Assembly (NCBI GenBank): GCA_017615635.1
Contig: JAFZZR010000028.1
Location: 1 to 39,161 of the forward strand
Length of the DNA: 39,161 nt
From: Lentisphaeria bacterium
Lineage (GTDB): Bacteria > Verrucomicrobiota > Lentisphaeria > Victivallales > UBA1829
Reading direction: 5' to 3'
Shown: positions 5,986 to 36,256 of the stretch, one piece after another
Numbering within the stretch: position 1 is the stretch's first letter
Layout: the number at the start of each line of letters is the position of its first letter
Position numbers and translations under genes: made by a program
Notes under the pieces: generated by a model
The model's input: the letters and a program-made list of their open reading frames with translations, nothing else
Told to the model about the DNA's origin: nothing
The model's database searches: none

Positions 5986-7613
5986 CCGCAGGCAGCTGCC
6001 CGGCTCCTTTCGTTCCGGATGACATTTCCGCGGCCGTGCGGGCCGCCGCCGGAGCGGAAACGGAGTCAAATCCCGCCGCCGTGACAGGCGGAACACCCGC
6101 GGAACTCCGGGACGCGGATTACTCGCTCGTGCAGTCCGGCGCGCTGACGGAACAGCAGCTGACCGGGCTTTACTCGGAGAAGACGGGCATCCGGATCCCG
6201 GATGAAAGCGATCTGGAGGAACCGCTTCCCTTTCCGGAGGGCGGATTCGACTTCTTTCAGGCAAATTTCTGCGTTCCTTACGAGTGGGACGACGAATCCC
6301 TGGTCTTCCTCGTTTCCGATCCCTACAGCGTCGGGTCCCTGACCTATGCCGCCCGGAAACAGTGGAAGCGGAAGGCCGGATTCCTTCTGGCCCGGCGCAC
6401 CTGCGTGGAACGGTTTCTCTCCCGTCTGCGCGGCATGGGCGAAGAGGAATCCGGTGACGCCGCCGGACCGGATACGGACGACGAGAACACGCTCCGGAAC
6501 ATGGCGGGCGAGGCGAGGATCGTGCGTCTGGTGAACGATATTTTCACGCGGGCCATCGAAGCGGGCGCCAGCGATATCCATGTGGAGCCGGGCATGGAAC
6601 AGGTCTCGGTGCGGTGCCGGATCGACGGCGTCCTGCATGAGATCATGACCTGTCCGCTGAATCAGTTCCCCGCCATTTCGTCCCGCATCAAACTGCTGGG
6701 CGGCTTGAACATTGCGGAAAGCCGGGTGCCGCAGGACGGCCGGACGTCCATCCGTCTGGGACGCGATACGCTGGACATGCGAATCAGCACGATCCCGATC
6801 CTGACGGGAGAAAGTCTGGTGCTCCGGCTGCTGAATCAGGAGGCCCTGACATTCGATCTGACCACCCTGGGCATGACCGATTCCCTTCTGGAAAAATTCC
6901 GGACCCTGATCCGGCTCCCCCACGGCATGATCCTGGTGGTCGGACCCACCGGCAGCGGAAAAACCACCACGCTGTACAGCGTCATGCACCTTCTGAACGA
7001 CCGGACACGGAAGATCATCACCGTGGAAGACCCGGTGGAATACAAGATGCGGGGACTCTGCCAGATGCAGGTCAATTCCAAGATCGGCGTCACTTTTGCC
7101 TCCGGTCTCCGGAGCATCGTCCGTCAGGACCCGGACATCATTCTGGTCGGGGAGATCCGCGACCGGGAGACCGCCGACATTGCCGTCAATGCCGCCCTGA
7201 CGGGACACCTGGTCCTCAGCACGCTCCACACCAACGATGCGGCGGGCGCGGTGACCCGGCTTCTGGATATGGGGATCGAACCCTTCCTGGTCTCTTCCGC
7301 CCTGAGCGGCGTGCTTTCCCAGCGTCTTGTCCGGAAGATCTGTCCCGTATGCCGCGGCATTCCGGAGCAAACCGCCGCATGCCGTGCCTGCTCCCGGACC
7401 GGATTCAAAGGCCGGAGCGGGATCTTCGAACTGCTCCTCGTGAACGATGAGTTCCGGTCGGCCGTCAACCGGAGCGCGGACAGCTCCGAGCTTCAGGCCA
7501 TTGCCGTGCGGAACGGCATGACGACGCTGCGCCAGGACGCGGAGGAGAAGGTCCGTCTGGGCATCACCACGGCGGATGAAGCGCTGCGGAGCGTGGCGGC
7601 GGACAGCGAGTGA
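5982..7613 (+). CDS. gspE: Type II secretion ATPase GspE
   Basis: 543 residues. The N-terminal about 150 residues form an N1E/MshEN-like domain. The ATPase domain has Walker A GPTGSGKTT (about 321-329), an Asp box with TVEDPVEY, Walker B-type IILVGEIRDRETADIA, and a His box LSTLHTNDA. A tetracysteine zinc site follows, CPVC at about 454 and CRAC at about 467; it marks GspE/PilB rather than PilT. It powers pseudopilus assembly from the cytoplasmic face via the L-like protein. ATG 5982 overlaps the gspD stop and has a GGAG Shine-Dalgarno about 10 bases upstream. Confidence 0.96.
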   Translation: MTAGSCPAPFVPDDISAAVRAAAGAETESNPAAVTGGTPAELRDADYSLVQSGALTEQQLTGLYSEKTGIRIPDESDLEEPLPFPEGGFDFFQANFCVPYEWDDESLVFLVSDPYSVGSLTYAARKQWKRKAGFLLARRTCVERFLSRLRGMGEEESGDAAGPDTDDENTLRNMAGEARIVRLVNDIFTRAIEAGASDIHVEPGMEQVSVRCRIDGVLHEIMTCPLNQFPAISSRIKLLGGLNIAESRVPQDGRTSIRLGRDTLDMRISTIPILTGESLVLRLLNQEALTFDLTTLGMTDSLLEKFRTLIRLPHGMILVVGPTGSGKTTTLYSVMHLLNDRTRKIITVEDPVEYKMRGLCQMQVNSKIGVTFASGLRSIVRQDPDIILVGEIRDRETADIAVNAALTGHLVLSTLHTNDAAGAVTRLLDMGIEPFLVSSALSGVLSQRLVRKICPVCRGIPEQTAACRACSRTGFKGRSGIFELLLVNDEFRSAVNRSADSSELQAIAVRNGMTTLRQDAEEKVRLGITTADEALRSVAADSE

Positions 7614-7629
7614 GGAAGGACGGCGTTTC

Positions 7630-8847
7630 ATGGCTATCTACCGGTATCTGGCTTCCGAAAACGGCGATCCGCCCCGCGAAGTCCTCATGGAGGCGGAAAA
7701 TCCCGTCGAGGCGCTGGGCAAACTCCGCAGCCGCGGCCTGATCCCCGTACGTGCGCTGGGTACGGGGACCCGGGAGGGAGACCGCGCCTTCGCCTTGCGG
7801 CGTTCCGGGATCGACGTCTACGGATTCACCCGGCAGCTGGCTCCGCTTCTTTCGGCTTACATTCCTCTGGAAAAAGCGCTGTCGATCATTGCGGAAAGCG
7901 CAAAAAAGGAGGAACAGCGTAACTTCGTGCTTTCTCTCCGGCAGGGACTCCATGAAGGCAAGAAATTCTCGGAACTGGTGCGCTCGCACGGGTCTCTGTT
8001 CCCCGGCTACTATGCAAACCTTATCGAAAGCGGCGAGGAGACAGGCAGTCTTCCGGAATCGGTGCGCCATCTTTTCCAGTTTATGACGGAAAGCCGGGAT
8101 CTGCGCAGCTTCCTGATTTCCAGTTCCATTTACCCATGCGCCATTCTCTGCGTCACCCTGCTGGTCACGATCCTCATGTTCACCGTGTTCGTTCCCCGGT
8201 TCGCCAGAATCTTCGAAGACATGGGCCGGACTTTGCCCCCCTCCATGGAGTTTCTGCTGGCGGCGGGTGCGTTTTTCCGGTGGCTGCCCCTGCTGATCCT
8301 GGCGGCCTGGCTGGCGCACCGGCTGATCCGGCATCTGATGGGTCCGGACGCCTATCGTTTTCATGTGAGCCGTCTTCTTCTTTCCGTTCCGGTGCTGGGC
8401 AGGATCATTTCCGATCTGGAGATGTGCCGCTGGATCCGGACTCTCTCCATCATGCTTTCCAATCATGTGGAGATCATACGGTCGGTCCGGATCGCGGAAA
8501 AGATTTTGTACAATCCGGTGATCTGCCGTGCTTTTCAGGGGATCGCCGAACGGATCCGGGGCGGCGAAAAACTGTCGGCCGTCTTGCGCAGCAACACCTT
8601 TCTGCCGGCCGAGATGACCCCGATGCTCCGCGTGGGCGAGGAGTCCGGGGCCGTAGGCGAAATGCTGACCCGGATCGCGGATAATCTGGAGGCGGACACC
8701 CGGCAGAAGATCAAGCGTCTGCTGAGTCTGTTCGAACCGGCGGTGATCGTTTTACTGGCGGCGGCCGTCCTGACCGTCGTCGTTTCGATTTTTATGGCTA
8801 TGATGGATTTGAACTCAGTCAACGTACAAGGAGGTCCCGGACTATGA
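7630..8847 (+). CDS. gspF: Type II secretion platform protein GspF
   Basis: 405 residues from ATG 7630 (MAIYRYLASENG), chosen over an in-frame ATG at 7576 because the latter lies inside gspE and the usual GspF N-terminus (MxxYxYxAxxxxG) begins here; AGGA lies upstream. Two T2SSF domains (about 55-175 and 260-380) share the pattern of helices with ESGEETGSLPE and GEESGAVGEMLTRIA, the duplicated GspF signature. Three membrane segments are visible, near ILCVTLLVTILMFTVFV, WLPLLILAAWL and VIVLLAAAVLTVVVSIFM. It is the polytopic inner-membrane core that rotates or extrudes pseudopilins. It starts 16 bases after gspE and overlaps gspG by ATGA. Confidence 0.95.
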   Translation: MAIYRYLASENGDPPREVLMEAENPVEALGKLRSRGLIPVRALGTGTREGDRAFALRRSGIDVYGFTRQLAPLLSAYIPLEKALSIIAESAKKEEQRNFVLSLRQGLHEGKKFSELVRSHGSLFPGYYANLIESGEETGSLPESVRHLFQFMTESRDLRSFLISSSIYPCAILCVTLLVTILMFTVFVPRFARIFEDMGRTLPPSMEFLLAAGAFFRWLPLLILAAWLAHRLIRHLMGPDAYRFHVSRLLLSVPVLGRIISDLEMCRWIRTLSIMLSNHVEIIRSVRIAEKILYNPVICRAFQGIAERIRGGEKLSAVLRSNTFLPAEMTPMLRVGEESGAVGEMLTRIADNLEADTRQKIKRLLSLFEPAVIVLLAAAVLTVVVSIFMAMMDLNSVNVQGGPGL

Positions 8848-9275
8848 AAATCCAATCTGAAAAACGTGCAAAAAAAAGAATGCCGTTCACCCTTATCGAG
8901 GTTGTCGTCGTCATCGTCATCCTCGTCACCCTGGCCGGCATCGCCACGCCTGTCTACATGAACTATGTGAAGCAGGGACGGATCGGCACCGCGAAAATGC
9001 AGCTGAAGCTCCTGGGACAGGAACTGGACAACTACAAGATCCGCGTAGGGCAGTATCCTTCCGAGTTGCGCGGACTGGTGGAAAATCTGGACGGCCACGA
9101 AAAGTGGGACGGCCCCTACATGAAGAAGATCCCGCTGGACCCCTGGGGGAACGAATATGTTTATGTAGTTCCCGGCGAACATAATACGGACACCTACGAT
9201 CTTTCCTGTCTCGGCGCCGACGGACAGTCCGAAGGAGAAGGGGAGAATGCCGATATCAATAACTGGGACGACTGA
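8844..9275 (+). CDS. gspG: Major pseudopilin GspG
   Basis: 143 residues with a short basic leader, then FTLIEVVVVIVILVTLAGIATPVY, the type IV pilin N-terminal helix with Glu at +5. The C-terminal part has the GspG-specific DPWGNEYVYVVPG and LGADGQSEGEGENADINNWD calcium-loop region, so it is the major pseudopilin. The residue before the expected cleavage is Pro (KKRMP/FTLIE), not Gly, which is unusual for a prepilin peptidase substrate. The start has an AGGAGGT Shine-Dalgarno and overlaps gspF by ATGA. It overlaps gspH by 29 bases. Confidence 0.95.
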   Translation: MKIQSEKRAKKRMPFTLIEVVVVIVILVTLAGIATPVYMNYVKQGRIGTAKMQLKLLGQELDNYKIRVGQYPSELRGLVENLDGHEKWDGPYMKKIPLDPWGNEYVYVVPGEHNTDTYDLSCLGADGQSEGEGENADINNWDD

Positions 9276-9765
9276 AAAGCGGCTTTTCTTCACGCTCCCG
9301 GAAGTCATTGCCGTCATGGCGATCCTTCTCGTGCTGGCCGCCATGGCCGTTCCCATGCTCCGGTCGCCTTCCGCCTCCTCCCGCATGGAAGAGACCGCTC
9401 TCGAATTCCAGGCGTTTTGCGCCCGGGTCCGCTTCCAGGCCGTGGAGAAGGGCGAGGACCGCGCCGTCTGTTTTGATCCGGCCTCGAACGAATTCTTTCT
9501 TTCGGATCCCGCCGATCCCGAAGCCGAACGATCCTCCATACGCTGGAAACTGCCGGAAGGTTTCGAATATTCCCGGGAAACGGCACTGAACGCCGAGCCG
9601 GAAGGGGACAGCGTGGAGCTGTTCCGGTATTATCCCGACGGCGGCGCCTCCGGGACCCGCGTGCTGGTCATGCGGTGCGGCAACGTGCGCCGGGAGTTCC
9701 GGATCTCGCTGCTGACCGGTCTTCTCACCAGCCGAGAACTCGGCGAAGAGGAGGACGTTCCATGA
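9247..9765 (+). CDS. gspH: Minor pseudopilin GspH
   Basis: 172 residues. The leader MPISITGTTEKRLF is followed by FTLPEVIAVMAILLVLAAMAVPML, a pilin-type N-terminus with Glu +5 and Phe instead of Gly at -1. The beta-rich C-terminal domain, with a VLVMRCGNVRREFRIS strand and the ending LLTGLLTS, fits GspH/FimT (general secretion pathway GspH). It overlaps gspG by 29 bases and gspI by ATGA, so the pseudopilin genes are translationally coupled. GspH is a minor pseudopilin near the tip. Confidence 0.88.
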   Translation: MPISITGTTEKRLFFTLPEVIAVMAILLVLAAMAVPMLRSPSASSRMEETALEFQAFCARVRFQAVEKGEDRAVCFDPASNEFFLSDPADPEAERSSIRWKLPEGFEYSRETALNAEPEGDSVELFRYYPDGGASGTRVLVMRCGNVRREFRISLLTGLLTSRELGEEEDVP

Positions 9766-10187
9766 TGGTCCGCCGGAAAAAAGGTTTCACTCTGCTGGAA
9801 ACGGTAGTGGCCGTGGCCGTGCTGGTCATGTCCCTGGGAGTCCTGTTCCAGCTGGCGGCGTCGGCCCGGAAACGGATCGCGCAGGCGGCCGAGGACTGGA
9901 ATACGACCCATCGTCTTCTGGAGGCCGCGGAGTACGCGCTTCTCCACGGGAACGGAGTGGAGACCGTACCCGAACGTTTTTTCCCCTACGAAGACTGCCG
10001 GACAGTCATCACCTGGGAGGAAATGGACGACGTCCACGAACAATACACCATGAACGGGATCGCGGGACAGCCCGAACTTCAGGCCTGCACGATCCAGCTC
10101 TACCGTCTCTCCGACGGCAAGGAACTGGACCGCCTGACGATCGACAGGATCCTCTACGACAATGCGCTCACCGAAACGGAAAACTGA
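9762..10187 (+). CDS. gspI: Minor pseudopilin GspI
   Basis: 141 residues from ATG 9762 (MMVRRKKG), chosen because an upstream in-frame ATG at 9675 lies in gspH and would bury the leader. The leader MMVRRKKG/FTLLETVVAVAVLVMSLGVL is the one fully canonical class III signal among G-J, with Gly at -1 and Glu at +5. Length and position between H and J fit GspI, which nucleates the I-J-K tip complex. It overlaps gspH by ATGA and gspJ by 26 bases. Confidence 0.87.
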   Translation: MMVRRKKGFTLLETVVAVAVLVMSLGVLFQLAASARKRIAQAAEDWNTTHRLLEAAEYALLHGNGVETVPERFFPYEDCRTVITWEEMDDVHEQYTMNGIAGQPELQACTIQLYRLSDGKELDRLTIDRILYDNALTETEN

Positions 10188-10860
10188 AAAGCGGTTCTTC
10201 ACGCTGGTCGAACTGGCCGCGGCCCTGACGGTCGCAGGCTTCGTCGTCCTCATTACCGGTACGGCCGCCATGTCCTTCTGGAAAACCTGGGAAGCGGCGT
10301 CCGGCCTGACCGCCCGGCTGGAAGAGTACAGAAAGATCGATACCGTCATGGATACGCTGGTCCGCAACGCGGTCCCCTTCAACTGGACCGACAGGGACGG
10401 GACCAACGATACCTCCTCGGATCTTCTCTTCGACGGACAGGAGGACGAACTGTTCTTCACAAGTCTCCGCCGTGCCTATGCCGGATCCGAAGGCTCTCTT
10501 CTCTTCGTCCGGATCCGCCTGGAAGAGGACGGCGATCTCGTGGCCGACTGCTCCCTCTTTCCCCGGTTCCCCTGGCTGGTGAATGACGAGGACGACATGC
10601 CCTGGACCCGCGAAGTCCTGGCTCGGAAAGTCCGGTCCGTCTCCTTCCTCTATGCGGACCGCAGCGAGAACGGAGAACTGGAATGGGAAGAGGCGGAGTG
10701 GGACAGAGAAGAAAAAAGCTTTCTGCCTCTGGCGATCCGCATGACTGTGGTCTGGGAGGACGGCACCGAAGAATCCTGGCTCCGCCGGACGGCCGGCAGC
10801 GGCGCCAGCAGCGTGTTCGGCGACAGGATGAGCGCCGCACAGGGGAGCACAACACGATGA
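10162..10860 (+). CDS. gspJ: Minor pseudopilin GspJ
   Basis: 232 residues. Leader MRSPKRKTEKRF is followed by FTLVELAAALTVAGFVVLITGTAAM, a pilin-like helix with Glu +5 and Phe at -1. The rest is acidic, with LLFVRIRLEEDGDLVADCSLFPRFPW and a late EEWLRR-like strand region as in GspJ-type pseudopilins. GspJ binds GspI and GspK at the tip. The gene overlaps gspI by 26 bases and gspK by ATGA. Assignment rests on order and length; pseudopilins diverge strongly outside the leader. Confidence 0.85.
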   Translation: MRSPKRKTEKRFFTLVELAAALTVAGFVVLITGTAAMSFWKTWEAASGLTARLEEYRKIDTVMDTLVRNAVPFNWTDRDGTNDTSSDLLFDGQEDELFFTSLRRAYAGSEGSLLFVRIRLEEDGDLVADCSLFPRFPWLVNDEDDMPWTREVLARKVRSVSFLYADRSENGELEWEEAEWDREEKSFLPLAIRMTVVWEDGTEESWLRRTAGSGASSVFGDRMSAAQGSTTR

Positions 10861-11942
10861 CCCGGATCGCTTTATACCGCAGACAGGCAAGACTCCGCCT
10901 TCGGAGGGAAGAAGGAACCGTCCTGATTCCCGTGCTGGCGGTCATCGTCTCCTGTTCTCTGATCGTTTCCGCCCTGATGGCCCTCTCCCAGCTGGGTACT
11001 TCGGGCATGGCGGCGCACACGCGTCTCCAGAAATCCGCCTATCTCTGCGAAGGCGCTCTCAACCGGGTCCAATGGCTTGTCGCCGCCGACCGGGCCACGT
11101 CTCCCGGCACGTCCCTGCTCTATTTCGATTACGCGGATTACGAATACGAGCGGTTTCCGGCCGACGGCGCGGAGCATGTCATGGACTACCACGGAATCCC
11201 GGTGAAATTCGTCATCACGGACGCCGCCGCCGGACTCGATTTCTCCCGTCTCTACTGCAGGACCACGGTGCGGCGTCTGGCCGCCGATCCCTCGGCCGAT
11301 TCCGAGTATCTGGATCAGGTGGAACAGTTTTCCGAACTCCTTTCCGACTACGTGGATTCCGACGATACCATTGCGGAGGACGGAATGGAAAGCGCCGACT
11401 ATGAAGATTCCGGGCGGAGACCGCTTCCGCGAAACGGCGAACTCCAGTATCGGGAAGAACTCTTCTGGATACCCGGCTTTACCGATCTTTTCCCGCCCGA
11501 CCGCGGCGGACGGCTTTCCTCTGTCCGCGTCATTCCGCCCAATTCCATGATCTCCACCGGCTCTTCGGGACAGGGACAGGGCGGCGGCTCCTCCTCGTCC
11601 AACTCGCTCTTTACGCAGAATCCGAATCTCTTCGGCGCCGGGGATTTCTATCTCCGGTACGTCTGCAAACTGGAAGAGGACGAGCTGGCGCAGGTCCGGG
11701 AAGCCATTCTTCTGTATCAGACGGAACGGGTCCCCCTGCAGGACTCCATCGAGGGAACTCTCTTCACAAAGCTCCTGAACAATTTGAACTGGTCGCAGGG
11801 ACAGACCGTCACCGTGGTCGTCGATCCGGCCGCCGCCGGGAGCGGTCCCTCCAAACGGCTGGCCGCAACCTGGACTGTCTCCGACAGCGCGGCAGGCCCG
11901 ACGGACGGCGTCGTCCGGTATCTGGAGTGGATGTTCTTCTGA
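10857..11942 (+). CDS. gspK: Minor pseudopilin GspK
   Basis: 361 residues from ATG 10857 (MTRIALYRRQ), chosen over an in-frame ATG at 10683 that lies within gspJ. The leader RREEG/TVLIPVLAVIVSCSLIVSALM has Gly at -1 and no Glu at +5, as is usual for GspK. The large globular domain includes FSRLYCRTTVRR, a segment with SELLSDYVDSDDT, and EELFWIPGFTDLF, which resembles the GspK helical insertion that caps the pseudopilus. A Gly/Ser-rich stretch lies at about residues 235-250. It is the last gene of the operon; only 6 bases separate its stop from that of the convergent DUF362 gene, and I see no terminator there. Confidence 0.88.
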   Translation: MTRIALYRRQARLRLRREEGTVLIPVLAVIVSCSLIVSALMALSQLGTSGMAAHTRLQKSAYLCEGALNRVQWLVAADRATSPGTSLLYFDYADYEYERFPADGAEHVMDYHGIPVKFVITDAAAGLDFSRLYCRTTVRRLAADPSADSEYLDQVEQFSELLSDYVDSDDTIAEDGMESADYEDSGRRPLPRNGELQYREELFWIPGFTDLFPPDRGGRLSSVRVIPPNSMISTGSSGQGQGGGSSSSNSLFTQNPNLFGAGDFYLRYVCKLEEDELAQVREAILLYQTERVPLQDSIEGTLFTKLLNNLNWSQGQTVTVVVDPAAAGSGPSKRLAATWTVSDSAAGPTDGVVRYLEWMFF

Positions 11943-11948
11943 CGAAGA

Positions 11949-13007
11949 TCAGAGGCGGATCAATTCGTACGAGCGGCTGCCCGCCCCCGCTTTTTCCGCA
12001 TGCTCCAGCATTTCGGTCCCTTTGAATTTCCGGCCCCGTTCCGCACAGGCATCCCAGCAGGCCTGGTCCACGGCCACCGGATCCAGCGAGGCGAAGATCC
12101 CGATGTCCGGGATCAGCGGGAACATGGGCCGGGGTTCGCAGTCGCATCCGCGGGTGATCACCAGTGCAAAATTCAGATATATGTTCCGGTGGCTGGTATG
12201 GGAGGCCGCTGCATATTCCGCCAGCTTCTCCCGAAACCGCCGCTTCTGGAAGAAGACACCGCTCAGTCCGCGCAGGGAAAGGATGGAGACCGCGTGATGA
12301 GGACAGGCGGAAAAACAGGCGCCGCATCCCAGACATTTTTCATGATCGATCCGCGACACCTCGCCTTTCGCCCGGCCCAGCGTGATCGCCCCGGCCTGAC
12401 AGCGTTTCTGACAGACCCCGCACCGTTTGCAGAGCCAGTTGCGGATCTTCGGCTTGATCCCCATATGCATGGCCAGTTTGCCCCCCTTCGAGGCAAATCC
12501 CATGGAAAGCTGCTTGAGCGCGCCTCCGAATCCGGCCAGCGCATGCCCTTTGAAATGGGAACAGACTATGATCTGGGGAAAATCATCGAACGCCCGGCCC
12601 AGACTGCACGTCCGGAAGTGCTTCCCGGAAATCGGATGAAGCGTCTGCTCCTCTCCGGATTCTCCATCCGCAATGATTACGGGAAGCCGGGTGAAACCGT
12701 GGGACTTCGCCAGTTTCCGGTGCTCCTCGGCGCGGAACCGTTTCCCTCCGTACAGCACACAGGTTTCGATATAGCAGCAGGAAGACCCCTGTTCCTCCAG
12801 CAGATCCACGATCCCGTCGTAATCCGCCGCCGGAAGGAACGTGCGGTTCCCCATTTCTCCGAAATGCACCTTCAGCGCCAGCTTTTTTTCCAGCGTCACA
12901 TGTTCCCGCTCCAGCAAAGCGGCAAAGAGTCCCCGGGCCGCCGCGCTGACTTCTTCCGGACTCGGCTTGTCCTTGACCGGAACGAAATATACCGGCACTT
13001 TTGTCAT
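11949..13007 (-). CDS. DUF362 domain protein with two [4Fe-4S] ferredoxin motifs
   Basis: 352 residues from ATG 13007 (MTKVPVYFVP), preferred over an upstream in-frame ATG at 13061 because AAGGTGAGAG sits just before it. The DUF362 part contains ALKVHFGEMGNRTF, a SHFKGHALAGFGGALKQLSMG segment and IGIFASLDPVAVDQACWD near the end, typical of this family. Two ferredoxin clusters are inserted: Cys193/196/199/203 and Cys225/228/231/235, each C-x2-C-x2-C-x3-C. DUF362/ferredoxin proteins are thought to act in electron transfer, but no substrate is established. It lies 57 bases downstream of the PHP gene, yet has its own promoter-like element at 13041-13068. Confidence 0.9.
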   Translation of the reverse strand: MTKVPVYFVPVKDKPSPEEVSAAARGLFAALLEREHVTLEKKLALKVHFGEMGNRTFLPAADYDGIVDLLEEQGSSCCYIETCVLYGGKRFRAEEHRKLAKSHGFTRLPVIIADGESGEEQTLHPISGKHFRTCSLGRAFDDFPQIIVCSHFKGHALAGFGGALKQLSMGFASKGGKLAMHMGIKPKIRNWLCKRCGVCQKRCQAGAITLGRAKGEVSRIDHEKCLGCGACFSACPHHAVSILSLRGLSGVFFQKRRFREKLAEYAAASHTSHRNIYLNFALVITRGCDCEPRPMFPLIPDIGIFASLDPVAVDQACWDACAERGRKFKGTEMLEHAEKAGAGSRSYELIRL

Positions 13008-13040
13008 ATCTCTCACCTTGCTTTTGAATGCGTTTCCGGA

Positions 13041-13068
13041 AAAGTAGCACGTCCCGCGCAAAAATCAA
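13041..13068 (-). promoter_or_regulatory. Putative promoter for the DUF362 gene
   Basis: On the - strand TTGATT, 16 bases, TACTTT, about 34 bases upstream of ATG 13007. The -35 overlaps the PHP stop codon. Two mismatches per box from the sigma-70 consensus. Confidence 0.5.
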
Positions 13069-13916
13069 CTCCGCCCCAGCTTTTTCAGCATTTTTTCCAG
13101 ATCGCCGTACGGGATCTCCAGTTTCCTCCCCAGCTCGATACCAGGCTGATTCACTCCGTGATAATCGCTCCCCCCGGATTCCAGAAGTCCGAATTCCGCC
13201 GCCACCGCCTTCGCCGCCGCCCGGTCGCTTTCCCTGTACAGCGAATAGCGCGTTTCCAGTCCCGAAAGTCCCGCGGGCACCAACTCCCGCAGCACGCGCC
13301 GCATGGCCGACCGGGTGGATGCGGAAAGGATCGGATGCGCCCAGACGGCAAGACCGCCGGACGCCAGAATGACCCGGATCGCTTCCTCCGGCGTCACGCT
13401 CGCCCGGGGAACATAGCACGGGGCGTTCCGCCCGAGACAGCGGGAGAAGACGTCCCGCATTTCGGAGAAATATCCTTTGGCCAGAAGGACCCGCGCCATA
13501 TGGGGACGACCCACGCTTTCGCCGCCCGCTTCCGCATGGACTTCCTCCTCCGTGATCTCGTATCCGTTTTCCCGGAGTTTCCGGATCATTTCCGTATTCC
13601 GGCGGAGCCGTTCCTCCCGGCGGGCCTGCAGAAACTTCACCAGCTCCCCGGATGTGAAGTCGATGAAGAGTCCGACGATGTGGATCTCCTTTCCGCGAAG
13701 CCTCGTGGAGAGTTCCACGCCCGGAATGCCGAAAAAGCCCTTTTCCTCCGATGCCCGCAGAAACTCTTCCAGTCCGGAGACCGTGTCATGATCCGTCAGC
13801 GCGCCCGCCGCGAGACAGGAAGCGCACATCTTTTCCGCCAGTTCGGATGGCGTATCCGATCCGTCCGATGCCGTGCTGTGCGTATGCAGATCGATCCATT
13901 TTTCTTCGTCCGGCAT
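13065..13916 (-). CDS. PHP-domain phosphoesterase (TrpH/RNase AM type)
   Basis: 283 residues from ATG 13916 (MPDEEKWIDLHTHS), chosen because GGAAGGGAG precedes it and the longer frame adds non-conserved residues over the promoter. PHP metal-binding motifs are present: DLHTHSTASDG near the N-terminus, LTDHDTVSGLEEF, GVELST, GRPHMARVL, VWAHPILS and a C-terminal GGSDYHG. This pattern and length match the TrpH/YciV family, metal-dependent 5'-3' exonucleases/phosphatases acting on short RNA or nucleoside 3',5'-bisphosphates. Substrate in this organism is inferred only. It has its own strong promoter upstream and may be followed by the DUF362 gene. Confidence 0.9.
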   Translation of the reverse strand: MPDEEKWIDLHTHSTASDGSDTPSELAEKMCASCLAAGALTDHDTVSGLEEFLRASEEKGFFGIPGVELSTRLRGKEIHIVGLFIDFTSGELVKFLQARREERLRRNTEMIRKLRENGYEITEEEVHAEAGGESVGRPHMARVLLAKGYFSEMRDVFSRCLGRNAPCYVPRASVTPEEAIRVILASGGLAVWAHPILSASTRSAMRRVLRELVPAGLSGLETRYSLYRESDRAAAKAVAAEFGLLESGGSDYHGVNQPGIELGRKLEIPYGDLEKMLKKLGRS

Positions 13917-13948
13917 TTTCCGTACTCCCTTCCTGGTGCTTTCACAGA

Positions 13949-13976
13949 AAGATACGCCGGTTTTCCAAAATTGCAA
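13949..13976 (-). promoter_or_regulatory. Promoter for the PHP gene
   Basis: On the - strand TTGCAA, 16 bases, TATCTT, ending about 33 bases before ATG 13916. The region 13917-14046 otherwise holds only the short gap to the preceding glycoside hydrolase; I see no convincing terminator in it. Confidence 0.65.
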
Positions 13977-14046
13977 GCCGGAACTTTTTTTGTTCACACC
14001 GAATATCAGTCTTTCAAGAGGCCGACACTTTTGCAGCCGCATCGTT

Positions 14047-17000
14047 TCAGTCTTCAGCCTGCTTTTTTATGCCGATGAGAATGAAGCTGTTTTCCGGTAT
14101 TGCGAAGTCCTTCAGATCGGCAAAGGACAACGGACGGTCATTCCATAGCTCCTTTATTTCGACTTTGCTGTTGTCCAGTCCGAGCTTCGCCCAGTCAACA
14201 GACAGCGCCGCCTTCTGATCCTCCCTTCCGAGATTGCCGACGATGATCAGATGAGAATAATCCGGGTGTTTCAACCTGTACCAGGAGGCAAAGACGTGCG
14301 GGGAAGCGGATCGGACGGCATCGTTGAACCAGTAGCCGAAGAATACGGCGTCATCGAGATTCAATTCCAAGCGGATTTTCCAGAATTTTGCTACCGCCCG
14401 GTTGTTGATCCAGTCGGAATCCACCGTGAAATCATGAAGCCAGGCGCTGGCAAACGAGCGGACCGCCATCGCTTCTCCGTTCAGTTCTTTTGCACGCGGC
14501 TTCAATTTGTCCATGAAGAGGACACGGGAAATCTGGTTGCATCGGATGACCGCCGCGCCCCGCACCACAGGGCTGTATGCGTACTGCAGTTCGGCGAGCG
14601 GGATCTCGCTGTAGAAGTGGTCCGGATCGTTACCGTAGAGCCAGACGAATTCTTCTCCGGGATACCACAGATCGGCAAAATTGTGGGCGATCGGGTTGAA
14701 ATAGTTGTGGGCGTGAATGAAGGTTTTCTTCCCGTGCCTGTGACTGATTTTACAGATCCGCATGAGATAATGCCTCAGGCTCATTGCGGTGGAATCGCAG
14801 TATTTCTGCCCGAACGCATCCGTCCCGCCATGCCCGTGGTGTTCATTGTCGCAAGTTCCGACATTGGAAATATCGTAATAGATTCCGCCCAGTTCGGGAA
14901 AATCGGCATAGAGTTTTTCGAGTCTGTATGCCATCAGGTCGGCAATGCCTTCCCCGCAGCAGTGAACGAGGTCGATTGTATCGTTCCCGTGCTTGATTCC
15001 AGTCTGCATGTATCCCGGATTGGTGCGCCATTCGGCCAGAAAATAATCCCATTCGTCATCCAGTTGACTGATGCCTTTCGGCTGGTGGTATGGAAACAGT
15101 TTGATGCCTTTCCGACCGTACGGAATGATCCACTTCTCCCGGAATTGATCCGGGAACCGCATGCGGTGTCCGGCATAGCCGTAAACGGCATCTTCCCGGT
15201 TGCATCCGGCCGTGCTTGAAATTTGGATATTCTGGTACGGATTCCCCATATAACTCCCTTCACGGACGGTCCGGAATCCTTTCGGCGGACGCTTTCCCGG
15301 CGTAGCCATGAAGGCCAGAGAGTACTTTGCACACTGATTCAGCGTAACCGGCGCGGCAATGATGTTGAGCGTTACCTCAACATTTTCCTTTCCGCGGCGA
15401 AGAACCGTGGTTTTCTCTGTGCCCTCCACAAAATTGGCGCCGGAAAGCGGCTGCCACATCATGCCGGTAACATGTCCGGTAAGCCAGGAGGCATCGGCGA
15501 GATTGAGCTTCTTTTCGATCTTGCCGTCCTTGTCCCAGGGCGTAGCGATGAAACCGCTGTGCAGACGGGAGAGAAAGCATTTTGCGGAATGATCCGGCAC
15601 GCTCCATTGAAGATGCATATCGCGAATGTCCTTCGATGCCGATTCCGGGGTCATGGTGAAATCCAGTTTCCACAATCCATCGAACCACAATTCTCCGCGC
15701 CAGTCGAATATCAGGCCGGAACATTCCCCCTTGCCGGAAAGCACCACGTAATCATCGTACTTTTCCTCTATGCGCAGGGCCCGCCAGGAGACAGACACGC
15801 CATCAATGGTCAGCACCGGCTGGGAGTACAGAACACTCTCTCCGCGGGAAAACATCTTTGCGGGGAAGGGGGAGTTGTTGAATTCATACAGGCGGTCCAG
15901 GATTTCGAAGACTCCGTTTCCGCAGTCGTTTACGCGGATCCATGGATCCGGCACGGTGTGATCGAGCGCGACATGCTTCCGATACGGAGTCATATCCGGC
16001 ACCCGGAACGGGAGAGCTGTCTGCAGAGCCTGAGGCCCCTCGACGGAAACGGCGATTTCGTATTGTCCGGGGGCAAGTCCGGACGGCAGAGGAAACTGGA
16101 TTTTGGAGAGAGTCTCCGGCTTGAAATCCGCGGAGGAAAATGTGCTGCCCTCCTTTGTCAGAGCGATGTGCCCGGAATACGTTTTGAGGTTGTTCAGTAT
16201 ATCCGGCCCGGCGTTGCCCAGATCGATTTTCAACTCGATGAAGCCCTCCGAGGGATAGGGTTTTGCGGAAACGCTCAAGGGAGATTCAACAGCGAACTCC
16301 AGATTATAGGAGAAGACGTTTTCCGCACTGATTTCCAGCAGGTACTTTCCCGCGGGAAGCTGTTTCGGAAATTTTCCGTCCGTTTCCGGTACCGGTTCTC
16401 CGTTGACGGTCAGGGTTACGGGCAGAGTTGTACGGATTTTCGCATCCAGACTGCCCTTGTAGATATCACCGAGAGATTCGAGGGAGACGCAGGAGGAATC
16501 ACCGGAAAAAATGACGGAACTGATGCCTTCCTCGTCTCCCGGATCGCCGTTCCAACCCATGAAGTAATGAGGAATACTGGCGAAGTTGAGCGCCCGGAAG
16601 TTGGCCCGGCGCTTCGTCCCGGCCACAGGGTTGTCCAGCGAAGAAAGGGGAATGGAGATTTCCGCGCTCCAGCCCTTGTCCAGAATTTTTGCGGCGCCTT
16701 TCGCTCCGCTGTTCCATTTGCGGTCTCCGTTTTTCGCATCGAGGATCGCCCCGTTGGCGTTGATGCAGAACCAGAGCTTCTGTTCCTTCGCATCCCGCAT
16801 GAAAAATTCGAAAACATCGTCGTCGAAAATATCCTGATCGTCGGCAGTCATCACCCGTTTCGTCACGGGCAGATCGGTAGTGAACCCGATAAGCAGATTT
16901 TCCCCGTCGGTCTTGATCCGCATGGCCGTCTGATTGCGCATTTTGTGGTTTTCGATCCGGTACGCTTTCATCAGCGGCATGCGGGCCGCATCGGCATACT

Positions 17001-17847
17001 CTGCGTCGCCGACCGTACCGTCCAGCGTGATGCAGGACGCTCTGGGAACAGTCAGTACCGGCGGCGGGAGTTTCCGCTTGACGGAGGGTCTTCTGGCCTC
17101 GTAGAGGGCGAGAATTTCCGCAGACTTCAGACAGCGTCCGTAAATGACAAGTTCATCCATGGCAGTCCGGTCTTCCGCAGAGGTATGGAACCGATGAAAC
17201 AGATTTCCGATTCCGATGGCGCCGCCGTGTTCCGCCCCGGGCAGAGGCTTTGGCTTGTTGAATTCTTTACGCGGGATAGCCGGATGGACATTTCCCGGAG
17301 CATACTTCTCCGGAAGTCTGCCGTCAATGTACACCGCCATGGAATCGGAATCCCAAACCGCCGTGACCATGTGCCATTTTTTGTTCAGCCAGTCCGCCGC
17401 ATCGACCTTGGCGTTGACGGATTCGGAACCGCCGGGATACTGGAGATAAACGCAGACGAACGGATTGGATTCGTACTTGTAGACAACCAGACGGAAATTT
17501 TTCTGCGCCGCTTCAAAAAACACCTGTGTACGATTGTCCGTAAAGCGCCAGTTCTCCGCGCTGACCCAGAAATTGACCGTCCCGTGTTCGGGTGTGAAGT
17601 TCTTTTCCATTTCGTAGGCGCAAAACTCGCTGCCGTTGAGACAGAGTGCATTGCCCTGTCCGTCGATTCCCGGATGCATGCGCAACTGAAGATCGGAGTG
17701 AAAATTCTTCGATCCGGGATTGCCTCCGGCGAAGTCCGCCGTTACGTGATAGGTATCGAATTTCACACGAAAAAGCAGCGCCGGCTCGTCCGCTGCCGAT
17801 ACGATGACGAGACAGAGCATCCCCAGAATGGAAAAAACAATCCTCAT
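14047..17847 (-). CDS. Large secreted LamG/CBM9-like glycoside hydrolase
   Basis: 1266 residues from ATG 17847 (MRIVFSILGMLCLVIVSAADEP), which has AGGAGAG eight bases upstream and gives a clean signal peptide ending around SAA/DEP. Domains by eye: a concanavalin-like LamG jelly roll (about 20-255, with GTVNFWVSAENW, WHMVTAVWDSDSMAVYIDGRL and a final IYGRCLKSAEILALYE); a CBM9-like domain (about 265-440, with ITLDGTVGDAEYADA, WSAEISIPLSSL and ALNFASI); Ig-like segments; and a C-terminal catalytic TIM-barrel region with GIKLFPYHQPKG, GGIYYDISNVGTCDNEHH and HRHGKKTFIHAHN. The layout resembles the DUF6067/GH123-like large enzymes of PVC bacteria, but I cannot fix the GH family. It is the last gene of the LacI-pseudopilin operon and a likely T2SS cargo or outer-surface enzyme acting on complex glycans. 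Confidence 0.75.
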   Translation of the reverse strand: MRIVFSILGMLCLVIVSAADEPALLFRVKFDTYHVTADFAGGNPGSKNFHSDLQLRMHPGIDGQGNALCLNGSEFCAYEMEKNFTPEHGTVNFWVSAENWRFTDNRTQVFFEAAQKNFRLVVYKYESNPFVCVYLQYPGGSESVNAKVDAADWLNKKWHMVTAVWDSDSMAVYIDGRLPEKYAPGNVHPAIPRKEFNKPKPLPGAEHGGAIGIGNLFHRFHTSAEDRTAMDELVIYGRCLKSAEILALYEARRPSVKRKLPPPVLTVPRASCITLDGTVGDAEYADAARMPLMKAYRIENHKMRNQTAMRIKTDGENLLIGFTTDLPVTKRVMTADDQDIFDDDVFEFFMRDAKEQKLWFCINANGAILDAKNGDRKWNSGAKGAAKILDKGWSAEISIPLSSLDNPVAGTKRRANFRALNFASIPHYFMGWNGDPGDEEGISSVIFSGDSSCVSLESLGDIYKGSLDAKIRTTLPVTLTVNGEPVPETDGKFPKQLPAGKYLLEISAENVFSYNLEFAVESPLSVSAKPYPSEGFIELKIDLGNAGPDILNNLKTYSGHIALTKEGSTFSSADFKPETLSKIQFPLPSGLAPGQYEIAVSVEGPQALQTALPFRVPDMTPYRKHVALDHTVPDPWIRVNDCGNGVFEILDRLYEFNNSPFPAKMFSRGESVLYSQPVLTIDGVSVSWRALRIEEKYDDYVVLSGKGECSGLIFDWRGELWFDGLWKLDFTMTPESASKDIRDMHLQWSVPDHSAKCFLSRLHSGFIATPWDKDGKIEKKLNLADASWLTGHVTGMMWQPLSGANFVEGTEKTTVLRRGKENVEVTLNIIAAPVTLNQCAKYSLAFMATPGKRPPKGFRTVREGSYMGNPYQNIQISSTAGCNREDAVYGYAGHRMRFPDQFREKWIIPYGRKGIKLFPYHQPKGISQLDDEWDYFLAEWRTNPGYMQTGIKHGNDTIDLVHCCGEGIADLMAYRLEKLYADFPELGGIYYDISNVGTCDNEHHGHGGTDAFGQKYCDSTAMSLRHYLMRICKISHRHGKKTFIHAHNYFNPIAHNFADLWYPGEEFVWLYGNDPDHFYSEIPLAELQYAYSPVVRGAAVIRCNQISRVLFMDKLKPRAKELNGEAMAVRSFASAWLHDFTVDSDWINNRAVAKFWKIRLELNLDDAVFFGYWFNDAVRSASPHVFASWYRLKHPDYSHLIIVGNLGREDQKAALSVDWAKLGLDNSKVEIKELWNDRPLSFADLKDFAIPENSFILIGIKKQAED

Positions 17848-17868: not shown

Positions 17869-17889
17869 CAGCACGGATTTTCTGTGCCG
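17869..17889 (-). other. Intercistronic hairpin between pseudopilin and hydrolase genes
   Basis: On the - strand a six-base-pair stem (including one G-T pair) closes around an A-rich loop, starting 3 bases after the pseudopilin stop and ending just upstream of the hydrolase Shine-Dalgarno. No U-tract follows, so it looks like an RNA-stabilising or expression-tuning element rather than a full terminator. Confidence 0.45.
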
Positions 17890-17892: not shown

Positions 17893-18612
17893 TTATTGAT
17901 TGTAGAGGTATACGCCGGGCGATTTGTGCCCGCGGAAGAACAGCGTTCCGGTCCTGTCTTCGATGTACTTATCCCGTGTATCCCGCAGTTTCTGTAAATC
18001 GCTGCCCGCCACGTGCCCGTCAAAAAATCCGGCATTGAGCGTCCGTTTGGAATGACGAAAGATATTCAGATACTCTTCACCGGCTTCGCTCACGTAACTG
18101 CGGTCCTTGTTGCGGGAATCCATGATCGTTGCGGTGGCGGCGGGATATTTCACTTTGGATACCTTGGGCAGTTTTTTGATGTCAGTTGCTGTCGGGGTGA
18201 TGAACAAATTCAGCCCGTAAGTGATGTAAAAGCCGAATGGATTCGGATGAAAATACGGTCCCCAGGTTTCGCCCGGATAAGATTCCGAGGAAGGACAGAA
18301 AAACGGCGTGGCGGTGGTCGGCTTGTCATGATCGCCGAGACCGACCCCGATCTGATTTCTCATTTTACTTACCCAGATGGAATCGGTGTTGGAACAGGCG
18401 TAAGGCATCATGAATCCATCATAGGTATCCGAATAGGCGAGATACCCGTAGGACAACTGTTTCAGATTGGAAAGACAGGTGCTCTGCCGCGCGAATTCCT
18501 TCGCTGAAGAAAGAGCCGGCAGAAGCATACCGGCAAGGATCGCGATGATGGCGATGACCACCAGCAGTTCGATGAGGGTAAATCTTTTTCCGGTTCTTCG
18601 TGTCAGGTTCAT
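17893..18612 (-). CDS. H-X9-DG-type pseudopilin-like protein 1
   Basis: 239 residues. Leader [10 protein letters not shown] precedes [20 protein letters not shown], a type IV pilin N-terminus with Glu +5 but Arg, not Gly, at -1. The mature part has [23 protein letters not shown], and a C-terminal [18 protein letters not shown]. The latter is the prepilin-associated H-X9-DG motif with one extra residue. Such proteins are PulG-like and very numerous in Lentisphaerota and Planctomycetota; the role of individual copies is unknown. Its ATG overlaps the LacI stop by four bases, and the glycoside hydrolase follows 45 bases downstream, so regulator, pseudopilin and enzyme form one operon. I infer a role in export or surface display of that enzyme. 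Confidence 0.88.
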
Positions 18613-19619
18613 TTCACTTTCTCCTTTCCTTGTCTGGGTTTCGTTATTGCATATCTCCCGGGGACATACAGCCAGTCGTCTTCCTTTACGTTGAACACTT
18701 TCCGGTATATTTCCGGCCGGATCCCTCTTTCGATCCAGTTGAGCATGGACTCTTCGACATAAGCGGGAATCTCGTTCTGTTCGGGAAAACTGGAAAAGAG
18801 TACGGCATCCTCATTTTTCGGCATAAATTCTTTGTAGCGCTCCGATTCGCACATCAGCAGGTTCGGCGGAAGCATTCCGATGGACTTCATTTCTGTTCGC
18901 CCGGGAATATCGGTGACAAAAAGGGCTGTGTCCTTTTCGTCCGCCACCTTTTCCGGTTCCAGAAATACGGCATGCCACAGGTAGTCGCCCGGGAAGGGAT
19001 AGCGCGCGAACTTCAGTTTGCCGTTGTGCAGGACGGCGTGGTATGCTCCGCTCAAATTCCTTTCCCGGACGATTTCCAGAATCCATCGGGAGAGAAACTC
19101 GTTTCTGGGATAGACGCAGTAGACGTTATCCTCTTTCGGCGCCCCCAGCACCATGCAGGGCAACTGCCCGGAAGCGAGAAAAGCACAGATTTTCCGGTGT
19201 GACTCCGGAATGATGTTGGTCACTACGCCGCCCAGAAGACCGCCTGCGTAAAGTTTCTTTACCCGGGAAAGCTGTTCCTCCTCCGAAAAGTAGGGAATAA
19301 ACAGAACCTCCAGACCATGCTTATTGAAGGCGAATGTCATATCGTAGAGACAGCTGTTCACATAGTCGTCCGTATTTCCGGCGGAATGCGATTCGTTCAC
19401 GTGGAGCAGCAGACCGATGATCGGCACTTCCTTCATCTTGATGGACCGGGCGAAAAAGTTTGCCTGGTAGTTCAGTTCCTTTGCGGTCTTCCGGATCAGT
19501 TCTCTCTTGCCCTGCGAGCAGACGATTCGCCCCGTCCGTCCATTGAGGACAGCGGAAACGAGAGTGGGCGTTACGCCGCATCGGACGGCGATATCTTTCA
19601 GTGTGATTTTCTGGCTCAT
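18609..19619 (-). CDS. LacI-family transcriptional regulator
   Basis: 336 residues from ATG 19619 ([16 protein letters not shown]). The longer open frame upstream is rejected because it would run through the promoter. The LacI helix-turn-helix is clear: [24 protein letters not shown], followed by a hinge region ending [16 protein letters not shown] periplasmic-binding-protein-like sensor domain starts at [12 protein letters not shown]. It contains [11 protein letters not shown] and a divergent C-terminal part with a Cys-rich SERYKEF region, so the ligand cannot be guessed beyond a probable sugar. It heads the operon with the pseudopilin and the LamG hydrolase, and an 18-bp palindrome covers its own start site, so autoregulation is very likely. 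Confidence 0.92.
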
Positions 19620-19638: not shown

Positions 19639-19656
19639 TAATTCAACGTTGAATTA
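19639..19656. promoter_or_regulatory. LacI-type operator, 18-bp perfect palindrome
   Basis: TAATTCAACGTTGAATTA is perfectly self-complementary with a central CG, as in LacI/PurR-family operators. It begins at the last base of the lacI -10 box and covers the expected transcription start, so binding would block initiation. I did not find a second copy of the core TTCAACGTTGAA in the window. Confidence 0.85.
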
Positions 19657-19684
19657 ACATAGCACTTCCGTTTCACCTTGTCAA
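19656..19684 (-). promoter_or_regulatory. Promoter of the lacI-pseudopilin-hydrolase operon
   Basis: On the - strand TTGACA, 17 bases, TATGTT: a consensus -35 with optimal spacing. The operator lies directly downstream and the lacI ATG is about 37 bases from the -10. Confidence 0.8.
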
Positions 19685-33073: not shown

Positions 33074-36000
33074 TCACTTCCGGATCAGGAGGGACGGCGT
33101 TTCCAGGAGGCCGCAGGGGACCAGCTGGCGTTCGGAAGACTTGTACATCTTGAACTGCGCGGGTCCGGTCCAGGCCATCCATTTCTGTCCGGTGAAGAAG
33201 GGGCCGAACGCATTTCTCCGGCTGCCGCAGACACGGATGGCGATGCGGTTCGTTCCTTTCACCAGTTCGGAAGTCAGATCCAGCTCGAAGGGCGGCCACG
33301 GGATCGGACGCTCTTCTCCGCCGTTGACGGAGACCGTCAGAGCCGCGCCGCGCCAGGCGCCGAACCGGAGGAACCAGTGTCCGCCCGACCCGGGATCAGC
33401 CTCGAAGGAGCGTTCATAGGTCACGTCGCCGGAATACTCCTGAAGCCCCTGTTTCACCCAGTCGCCGGTCTTCAGACGGCCGGGCAGTTCGCCGATCTTT
33501 TCCTCGTACACGCCAAAACGACCCAGCAGGAAGATCGATTCCAGACCCGGCAGCTTCTCATGATAACGGCCGGAAAGGGTCAGCAGATTCTTTCCCTGCC
33601 GGAAAAGGCTCCTGGGGATCCGGAGCGTCTTCAGGACGGGATCGACCCACCAGCCCGGGCGTGCGGGATCTCGTGAAACGGGCTCGCCGTTGAAGAGGAT
33701 CGAGCTGTAAAGTTCCGGGCGTTCCAGCGCCAGAAGGCAGTCTTCCGCCGGGATGCGGACGCAGTCGATCCCATACGTCAGTTCGATGTCAAGCTGTTTC
33801 TCCGGCACGGTCTTGTCCCGGAGCCAGGGCTGGACCATCTGGCCGCCCCGGGGTGCGGCGCCCAGCATCTTCCGCAGGTGATCGTCCGCCTGGATGAAGA
33901 AGGCGTTTTCCAGCTCGGTCCGGCCGTCGGCCTTCAGCGTACAGTGATCCAGCACCAGCGAGTTGAAATCGTTGAGCGAATAGGTCCACTCGTCGCCTCC
34001 GGGAAGCGCGCCCTGGGGCTTCTCCGCATGGAACTCCGTCCGGGCGGAAATCTTCTCCGGGCGCTCCGTCGTGAAGAGGAAGAGCCGGGATTGAAGCGGG
34101 GCAAAGGAGGTGCGGAACACATAGGATCCCTCTTCGCGCCGGAACGGGACCTCATACACGGATCCGTTCGAGGGATCCAGTTCGTACACGGCTCCGGCAT
34201 CCGGAAGGGCCACCCGGACCACGGCCTCGGGGAACGCCAGATTCCGTTCCCGGACCATGGGACTTTCCCAGGGACCCGAGAACGTCATGGAGGTATTGCA
34301 GAGGAAGAGGTTGTACGCACCATCCTTTTCGGCGAGACGGGAAAGGACGGGCGCGATCTGGGCGCCGGAACGATCCGTCACGGAAAGACGGCGTCCGACG
34401 GCAAGAAGTTTCTCCTCCACCCACGGTTTTTCCGCAAAGACGAAATAACGGCGGTAGACGTCGGCCGCTTCTTCCGAGGGAAGAGCGTCCACAAAGGCGG
34501 GCGGCTCGCCGAGATAGACCACCAGGCCTCCGGATTCGGCCCACTTTTTCAGGAGTTCGAGCGTGGTGGACCGGATGGTCAGGATCCGCGGGATCAGAAC
34601 AACCTTGTATTCCGCCTTTCCGACACGGAAAACACCGTCCTCCGCCTTCGCCAGACGGGACATCATCTCTTCGTCGCCGAAATCGAAATCCACGTTGACG
34701 GAAAGCAGATGGTCCGTCAGCGAGTTCCAGTCGCGGTCCAGCTCCGCTTCCGCAACGGAGGACTTCGTCAATCCGGCGCTCAGGCAGATGCTCCAGCAGG
34801 ATTCCACGGGATGGATCATCAGGACGTCCCGGATCTCCTTTCCGCCGGTGAGGACGGATCCCAGACGGGCGAAGTAATCCTCCACCACATGATACTTGTC
34901 GTGCCAGGAGGACTGGAAGGAGATGCTGGCCGGATAATCCCGCTTGGCTTCGCCTTCCATGGAGTACCACGCAAGATGCTGACAGCGGAAGTTGATCCCC
35001 AGCGCGTACTGCCAGTCGCCCAGCGCCTTGTGGCCCATGAACGGGAAATCCCATCCGGTGCAGCCGTAGGTCTCGGAAAGCCGCACGTCACGGCCGGTCT
35101 GCCGGGCGACGGAAGTACACTGTTTGGCCGTATTGAATATCTGCCAGTATTCCGTCAGCAGATCGATGCCCGGCATCTGCATATGCTCGTAGGAGCGCAT
35201 GGCGGCCCCGACCGCAAGCGTCTGATTGCGAAGCGTATCCTCCATGAGGACGTGCCCCGTCATGGCGATCCCGTGCTTCCCGCACCAGTCGCCGATCTGG
35301 CCGGCGAAGGACCGGACGAACAGATCGGTCAGCATATCCCGGTAGTGCCAGCGCACCCGGGATACCGTTTTTCCGCAATCGAAGTACAGTTCCGGCAGAT
35401 GATCCAGAATGTCGTATCCGTATTTCTTCCGGAACTCTTCCGGCAGGGCATCAGTCCACGGCGTGCTCCAGTCAGCATGAGAAACGTATGTAGGCTCGTC
35501 CGTGAAGATCCCGGGCACCGTTTTCCCGAACGCCTTCCCGCAGCGGGCGGAATACGTATCGTGCGTCGTTTCCAGGAAACGTTTCACCGCCGCCGGATTC
35601 AGCGTGTCCAGATACGTGGCCCCGTTGTACCACGAAGACGGCTCGTTGAGGAGAACACGGAAACGGAACAGCTGTCCGTCGGACTCGGTCCCCTCCCCGG
35701 GTCCGGAAATCCGGGTGTAGCGGACGAATTCCCCGGCGCTCCACAGGATCCGGAACCAGACATCGCCTTTTCCGGGAGCCGGATCGCCCTCGATCCGCTG
35801 ACAGTAAAGGGCTCTCTGACGGTACTGCGGATCCCGCGTCACCAGACTTCCGGCGGCGCCGGAGGGCCAGCGGTCTTCATCGTAGAGCCAGGCCTTCATG
35901 CCGCGCTTTTCCGCCTCGTCGATACAGGCATCGATGCACTCGAACCATTTTTCACCCAGATACGGAGTCGCCATGCCCACCCGGGAGTGCATGAAAAATC

Positions 36001-36136
36001 CGCCCATGCCCATGTCCTGCATAATGCCGATCTGACGGCGCAGCTCCTCCGGCTCCAGTGCGGCGTTCCAGGCCCAGAACGGGGCGCCGCGGAAAATCGG
36101 GGAAGGTGACTCAAACTCTTTCTGCCAGCTTTTCAT
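33074..36136 (-). CDS. GH106-like glycoside hydrolase, probably cytoplasmic
   Basis: 1020 residues. The N-terminus matches the GH106 (alpha-L-rhamnosidase)-like group: APFWAWNAALEPEELRRQI, MGMGGFFMHSRVGMAT, WLYDEDRWPSGAAGS. A TIM-barrel follows with GIFTDEPTYVS, GIAMTGHVLMEDTL, a candidate catalytic region LSETYGCTGWDFPFMGH, and GINFRCQHLAWYSMEGEAKR. The C-terminal third is built of beta-sandwich modules (GSVYEVPFRREEGSYVF, WFLRFGAWRGAALTVSVNGG, INRIAIRVCGSRRNAFGP-like). There is no signal peptide or lipobox, so it probably acts inside the cell on imported oligosaccharides. AAGGAG lies 14 bases before the ATG, a rather wide gap. It follows a pseudopilin gene and a lipoprotein glycosidase gene on the same strand. 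GH106 membership and rhamnosidase activity are inferred. Confidence 0.8.
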   Translation of the reverse strand: MKSWQKEFESPSPIFRGAPFWAWNAALEPEELRRQIGIMQDMGMGGFFMHSRVGMATPYLGEKWFECIDACIDEAEKRGMKAWLYDEDRWPSGAAGSLVTRDPQYRQRALYCQRIEGDPAPGKGDVWFRILWSAGEFVRYTRISGPGEGTESDGQLFRFRVLLNEPSSWYNGATYLDTLNPAAVKRFLETTHDTYSARCGKAFGKTVPGIFTDEPTYVSHADWSTPWTDALPEEFRKKYGYDILDHLPELYFDCGKTVSRVRWHYRDMLTDLFVRSFAGQIGDWCGKHGIAMTGHVLMEDTLRNQTLAVGAAMRSYEHMQMPGIDLLTEYWQIFNTAKQCTSVARQTGRDVRLSETYGCTGWDFPFMGHKALGDWQYALGINFRCQHLAWYSMEGEAKRDYPASISFQSSWHDKYHVVEDYFARLGSVLTGGKEIRDVLMIHPVESCWSICLSAGLTKSSVAEAELDRDWNSLTDHLLSVNVDFDFGDEEMMSRLAKAEDGVFRVGKAEYKVVLIPRILTIRSTTLELLKKWAESGGLVVYLGEPPAFVDALPSEEAADVYRRYFVFAEKPWVEEKLLAVGRRLSVTDRSGAQIAPVLSRLAEKDGAYNLFLCNTSMTFSGPWESPMVRERNLAFPEAVVRVALPDAGAVYELDPSNGSVYEVPFRREEGSYVFRTSFAPLQSRLFLFTTERPEKISARTEFHAEKPQGALPGGDEWTYSLNDFNSLVLDHCTLKADGRTELENAFFIQADDHLRKMLGAAPRGGQMVQPWLRDKTVPEKQLDIELTYGIDCVRIPAEDCLLALERPELYSSILFNGEPVSRDPARPGWWVDPVLKTLRIPRSLFRQGKNLLTLSGRYHEKLPGLESIFLLGRFGVYEEKIGELPGRLKTGDWVKQGLQEYSGDVTYERSFEADPGSGGHWFLRFGAWRGAALTVSVNGGEERPIPWPPFELDLTSELVKGTNRIAIRVCGSRRNAFGPFFTGQKWMAWTGPAQFKMYKSSERQLVPCGLLETPSLLIRK

Positions 36137-36211
36137 GATGAAAATCGAAACTCCTTGTATTCAGAATGTTTTCTGCCTGTCCCATCCAGACATACGTGAG
36201 GACGGCGCTGT

Positions 36212-36240
36212 AATATACCATCTGCCGTACTTCTTTTCCA
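36212..36240 (-). promoter_or_regulatory. Possible internal promoter for the GH106-like gene
   Basis: On the - strand TGGAAA, 17 bases, TATATT, about 76 bases before ATG 36136 in the 147-base gap after the pseudopilin gene. Would allow separate expression of the enzyme. Confidence 0.4.
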
Positions 36241-36256
36241 GCCATATCTCCATCCC

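Follow-up and report, generated by a model that had tools for sequence, protein, structure and literature searches.

The closest described systems are the autoregulated local regulons of LacI-family proteins, in which an even, 18-nt palindrome with a central CG stands before the regulator's own gene and carbohydrate-type enzymes lie adjacent (Ravcheev et al. 2014, PMC4052901). This survey gives a figure of 72% for autoregulation, and the motifs of 1173 of 1303 regulators have a central CG; the strings "Lentisphaer" and "Verrucomicrob" do not occur in its main text. The code by which such proteins recognize their operators was derived for TVSR regulators, where the Y,Q pair of LacI corresponds to AA-15 and AA-16 and AA-16 is the strongest determinant (Camas et al. 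2010, PMC2978694, section 9).

The locus described here lies in a 39,161-nt stretch of Lentisphaeria DNA (hereafter, the window), which is contig C151 of a draft genome (3.72 Mb, 204 contigs, 88.7% complete). It shares with the regulons of PMC4052901, as presented there, the even 18-nt central-CG palindrome before the regulator's own gene and the adjacent carbohydrate-type enzyme, whereas the second gene of its operon encodes a pseudopilin. The candidate switch is of an ordinary kind, in a poorly studied group. Its parts are as follows:

19679–19684, minus strand: −35 element TTGACA (promoter scan and sequence reading)
19656–19661, minus strand: −10 element TATGTT, at a 17-bp spacer from the −35 element; its final base is the palindrome's first base
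19639–19656, no strand: candidate operator TAATTCAACGTTGAATTA, a perfect 18-bp CG-centred palindrome whose core is conserved upstream of related LacI genes
18609–19619, minus strand: LacI-family regulator P0001, 336 aa, with a LacI helix-turn-helix (HTH) at residues 6–54 and a predicted PBP-like effector fold
17893–18612, minus strand: pseudopilin (N_methyl and DUF1559), with an ATGA overlap with the LacI stop
14047–17847, minus strand: large putatively secreted enzyme, 1266 aa, with Laminin_G_3 near the N-terminus and GH123_N near the C-terminus

The perfect 18-bp palindrome reported in the first-pass annotation was borne out: all 18 positions match at 19639–19656 around an ACGT centre, and it is the longest perfect palindrome of the whole window (the runner-up has 16 bp). 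The TTGACA-N17-TATGTT promoter that it was said to abut was also recovered, scoring 10/12 with a TG preceding the −10 element on the minus strand, although the palindrome and the −10 element actually overlap by 1 bp. The transcript start predicted from the −10 element would fall inside the palindrome, in agreement with the earlier proposal that it covers the expected start site. The palindrome overlaps the regulator's own predicted promoter, as in an autoregulated operon, and lies 19 bp from the LacI ATG at 19619. Its centre is 28 bp from the start codon, whereas most sites described in PMC4052901 lie at 30–140 bp.

Palindromes of at least 18 bp are expected 0.16 times per window in first-order Markov sequences of the same length, and the palindrome by itself is only mildly improbable. 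Around the site, 2 promoter-like matches were found against 1.7 expected (2.3 kb), which is chance level. On these figures the operator claim could not rest on sequence by itself; it is decided by the palindrome's position and conservation. Within 3 mismatches, the 19639–19656 sequence occurred 0 times in 100 shuffles.

The regulator has the N-terminal HTH of the LacI family (PF00356, 29.9 bits against a Pfam cut-off of 27) and, as judged by its fold, the PBP-like effector domain. Its start was placed at the ATG at 19619 rather than in the longer open frame reaching 20174 because the first residues of homologues align there. A structure model built from an 8-sequence alignment (mean pLDDT 79.8, pTM 0.67; hinge residues 54–64 below 50) is similar to LacI-family repressors from end to end (Foldseek E 2.5e-12), and CelR, SghR, CcpA, PurR and LacI lead the hits. 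Model residues 64–321 match CcpA and other LacI-family domains at Z 15–17 (CcpA and LacI chains at VIA Z 16), and the effector domain is predicted to adopt a periplasmic-binding-protein-like fold. In predicted fold and domain order the protein is like E. coli LacI, PurR and B. megaterium CcpA; unlike them, it has no Pfam effector match at E 0.001, and identity to them is 10–16% in alignments. In hinge alignments A57 is invariant and I60 alternates between I and M; these may be the conserved alanine of the hinge and the hydrophobic residue that goes with the central CG (LacI numbering), in the segment, 54–64, where the model is poor.

Sites within 2 mismatches were present in 14 of 137 genomes of the order, against 6 of 137 for a reversed control pattern. 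Six of the 14 adjoin a LacI HTH (the window's own site and 5 of the 13 other loci examined); the remaining 8 have no such neighbour, several have no CG centre, and some of them look like chance matches. Four of the five LacI neighbours (in G004, G066, G080 and G104) belong to the subfamily of the window protein, with 29–40% identity overall and the same recognition residues, and the fifth (G084) is of another type, that of a second LacI gene on contig C80 of the window's own genome. The G004 gene has a broken reading frame in the assembly, and its HTH piece is 63% identical to the window protein. A further site, in G111, has 3 mismatches and was reached through a protein search instead of the site scan.

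In all, TTCAACG[TA]TGAA is found with five relatives of the window LacI that come from other genera and share its recognition residues (T-[PS]-T...A): four have it before their own LacI gene and one on the promoter of a divergent glycosidase-type gene. The layout in G080 is a near base-for-base copy of that in the window, TTGACA-N17-TATACT being followed directly by TAATTCAACGATGAATTA. The G066 site matches at 16/18 positions and is located ~136 bp upstream of the LacI start. In G004 the site precedes, by 28 bp, a divergently oriented gene that has a GH123 N-terminal match, and the enzyme gene itself appears to be the target there. Conservation upstream of orthologues, on which the first-pass annotation had staked its reading, was therefore found: relatives with the same residues have the same core and mostly the same promoter layout, around an even palindrome with a central CG. 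G001, of the same genus, has neither a site within 2 mismatches nor a LacI of the subfamily; a phage collection gave no match to the promoter region; and among 387 genomes of the phylum the subfamily was detected at E 1e-40 in 13, all in the order.

To relate sites to proteins, we used a profile search of the 137 genomes, which gave 28 matches in 21 genomes. We looked for upstream sites at 27 of these, omitting the C-terminal fragment of the frame-broken G004 gene, and set 8 aside as more distant LacI proteins or as lacking an HTH (G125, G109, two of G102, three of G094, and G117). All 19 remaining genes have a CG-centred palindrome with 6–9 of 9 pairs, and its half-sites vary with residues 16–18 of the regulator (LacI numbering). 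T16 with T18 (P or S at position 17) goes with TTC-AAC or TTC-ATC in 6/6 cases (window, G004, G066, G080, G104 and G111), alanine at 18 with TTA half-sites (TTAA-type sites) in 8/8 sister regulators, S16/T18 with TTT in 2/2, and S18 with ATA in 3/3 close relatives. On a tree of 18 members (G004 is absent from it), the site classes are scattered and require 6 changes against a minimum of 3, which indicates that descent alone does not explain the site and that it tracks the recognition residues. The reading of the palindrome as a LacI operator is strengthened by the fact that, among sister regulators, a change of recognition residues comes with a change of site.

This pattern is like the code given in PMC2978694, in which the equivalent of LacI residue 18 (AA-16) tracks bases 4–5 from the centre. 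The window subfamily has x-V-[SW]-[AVST] where the regulators of that code have TVSR, the arginine being mostly replaced by alanine. Residue 16 also seems to matter in the window subfamily, judging from the T16/T18 sites with TTC and the S16/T18 sites with TTT. The best −10-like hexamer, as taken by our survey script, ends 7–22 bp before the operator centre in 18 of the 19 promoters; the exception is G004, whose site is on the divergent promoter.

CG-centred palindromes are frequent before LacI genes of this lineage in general. Among 82 distinct LacI genes pooled from the own and related genomes, 39 have one (at least 7 of 9 pairs) 5–75 bp upstream, compared to a mean of 1.36 and a maximum of 5 in 200 shuffles, and 43 have none at this threshold. 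Other centres are rarer in the same stretches (GC 0, AT 8, TA 2), and control stretches yielded 9 (80–150 bp upstream) and 1 each (two intragenic stretches). The excess over shuffles suggests that negative autoregulation by LacI proteins is common in the lineage. That would agree with the 72% given in the survey (PMC4052901).

The first-pass annotation had also suggested that further copies of the palindrome, if present across the genome, would define a regulon; the genome scan gave no such genome-wide regulon, and we rejected the idea. The 3.7-Mb draft contains no second exact copy of the 18-mer, and the sole other site within 3 mismatches is TGATTCAACGTTGAACCA on C80, directly upstream of the second LacI gene; it matches the window site at 15/18 positions, with an identical 12-bp core, TTCAACGTTGAA. 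Because ~1.3 sites at 3 mismatches are expected in the genome (uniform-base estimate), only the position of the C80 site before a LacI gene is informative. The regulon therefore looks local, and the 88.7% completeness of the draft leaves room for a further target.

We conclude that 19639–19656 is very probably the operator of the LacI protein encoded at 18609–19619, which would negatively autoregulate its own operon until relieved by a ligand. This agrees with the negative-autoregulation layout first proposed and is supported by the layout, the conservation before orthologues and the covariation of sites with residues. A LacI-type dimer would place one HTH on each half-site and its hinge helices at the central CG. 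Bound across the end of the −10 element and the start region, it would sterically exclude RNA polymerase from the promoter of the operon that encodes it. Repression would cover the whole operon, repressor gene included, and negative autoregulation would keep the repressor scarce. Repression would be relieved, and the operon induced, when a small ligand binds the effector domain; the LacI family and the adjacent enzyme suggest a sugar, probably one that the enzyme frees from its substrate.

The main user of the site might instead be the C80 LacI (recognition residues S-I-R...H), or both regulators might share it, either of which we regard as improbable. Upstream of the C80 LacI gene stands a site that shares the 12-bp core, and the same-type LacI of G084 comes with TGATTCAACGTTGAATCA and with a second site of that core before a pilin gene; the near identity of the C80 and window sites makes some cross-binding between the two LacI proteins possible. 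But both known C80-type sites begin with TGA and the window site with TAA, no C80-type LacI adjoins the window site, and in G080, G104, G111 and G066 the core is found upstream of the genes for window-type regulators themselves.

An inverted repeat as perfect as this one, upstream of a start codon, could also act in RNA, as a leader hairpin or an attenuator. We rejected the hairpin reading because transcription is expected to begin inside the repeat, which would leave only some half of the repeat in the RNA. The palindrome is, moreover, loopless, A+T-rich and without a T-run, no terminator-like site is listed there by the scan, and its conservation tracks the recognition residues of the protein; a role in RNA is highly unlikely. 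Least credible of all, to a degree that makes it negligible, is a chance palindrome beside a chance promoter match. The expected numbers of both would allow for this, but other families of the order have the same core ahead of their genes of this subfamily, and CG-centred palindromes exceed the shuffles upstream of LacI genes at large (39/82).

The operon that the LacI protein would repress likely consists of its own gene, the pseudopilin and the LamG/GH123_N-type enzyme, whose ATG at 17847 is 45 bp past the pilin stop; co-transcription is suggested by the ATGA overlap and by conserved gene order. A hairpin with a 7-bp stem (17871–17887) in the gap that separates the pilin and enzyme genes has no T-run after it on the minus strand. 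In G066, which belongs to another family of the order, a same-strand run encodes LacI, an alpha/beta hydrolase, a pilin (39% identical to that of the window), a protein that weakly matches ceramidase, and an enzyme 51% identical to that of the window over its whole length. The recurrence of this set indicates that regulator, site, pilin and enzyme have stayed together.

The repeated coupling of LacI and pseudopilin genes is the less ordinary lead. A pilin motif is found within 700 nt downstream of 17 of the 19 subfamily LacI genes; in the two exceptions the pilin is two genes down (G066) or none was seen (G004). It also follows 9 of 30 readable LacI genes in the own genome, where ~1% per gene is expected from at least 150 pilins in 3.7 Mb; one further pilin there is in frame with its LacI. 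This genome has 37 LacI HTH matches and no fewer than 150 hits for the pilin N-methylation motif (231 candidates). In G045 and G084, pilin promoters themselves contain palindromes of LacI type. From these observations, LacI repressors could act in the order as switches of pseudopilin-plus-glycosidase cassettes, comparable to polysaccharide utilisation loci (PULs), in which each sugar signal would induce its own DUF1559-type pseudopilin and enzymes, and new cassettes would arise through changes in residues 16/18 and in the operator; we put this forward tentatively, with doubt slightly outweighing belief.

By listed titles, no paper on Lentisphaeria LacI-pilin operons was found in the open-licence literature. 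The operator assignment is well supported, in an uncultured lineage on whose regulation the literature searched offers almost no data, and the matched set of repressors and sites allows LacI recognition rules to be tested outside the TVSR group. If pseudopilins are induced together with single glycan-degrading enzymes, a role in sugar uptake or secretion, and not only in general pilus assembly, would follow. The LacI-pilin coupling offers a handle on the function of the large Lentisphaeria pseudopilin family.

Several arrangements seen along the way involve the same gene types. In G045 (C1, ~1339298–1341703; L125 7299, 7618, 8787 and 9703), a 2.4-kb stretch has four TTCTACGTAGAA copies, of which two immediately precede pseudopilin genes and one stands beside a promoter-like TTGACT-N17-TAAACT sequence; a LacI gene follows further downstream, beyond GH123 and GH2 genes. 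In G084 (C399; L124 5326 and 2340), one of two sites with the 12-bp core precedes the LacI gene (S-I-R) and the other a pilin gene; DUF4434 and GH130 genes separate the two sites, which likely make up a two-promoter regulon of one LacI. On C66 of the own genome (~12821–14470; L014), LacI and pseudopilin share one 606-aa open frame with no stop between, which is either a fusion or the result of a lost stop or an assembly error.

The window itself holds a type II secretion-like run at 8844–11942 and 3616–8847, read by eye from the translations, with a secretin-like large protein, a GspE-like ATPase, a GspF-like membrane protein and several GspG/H-like pseudopilins. A second enzyme-pilin cluster (33074–39067), which includes a 669-aa protein with no Pfam match, has two assigned members:

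33074–36136: GH106-type rhamnosidase match (Pfam)
36284–37018: pseudopilin of the second cluster
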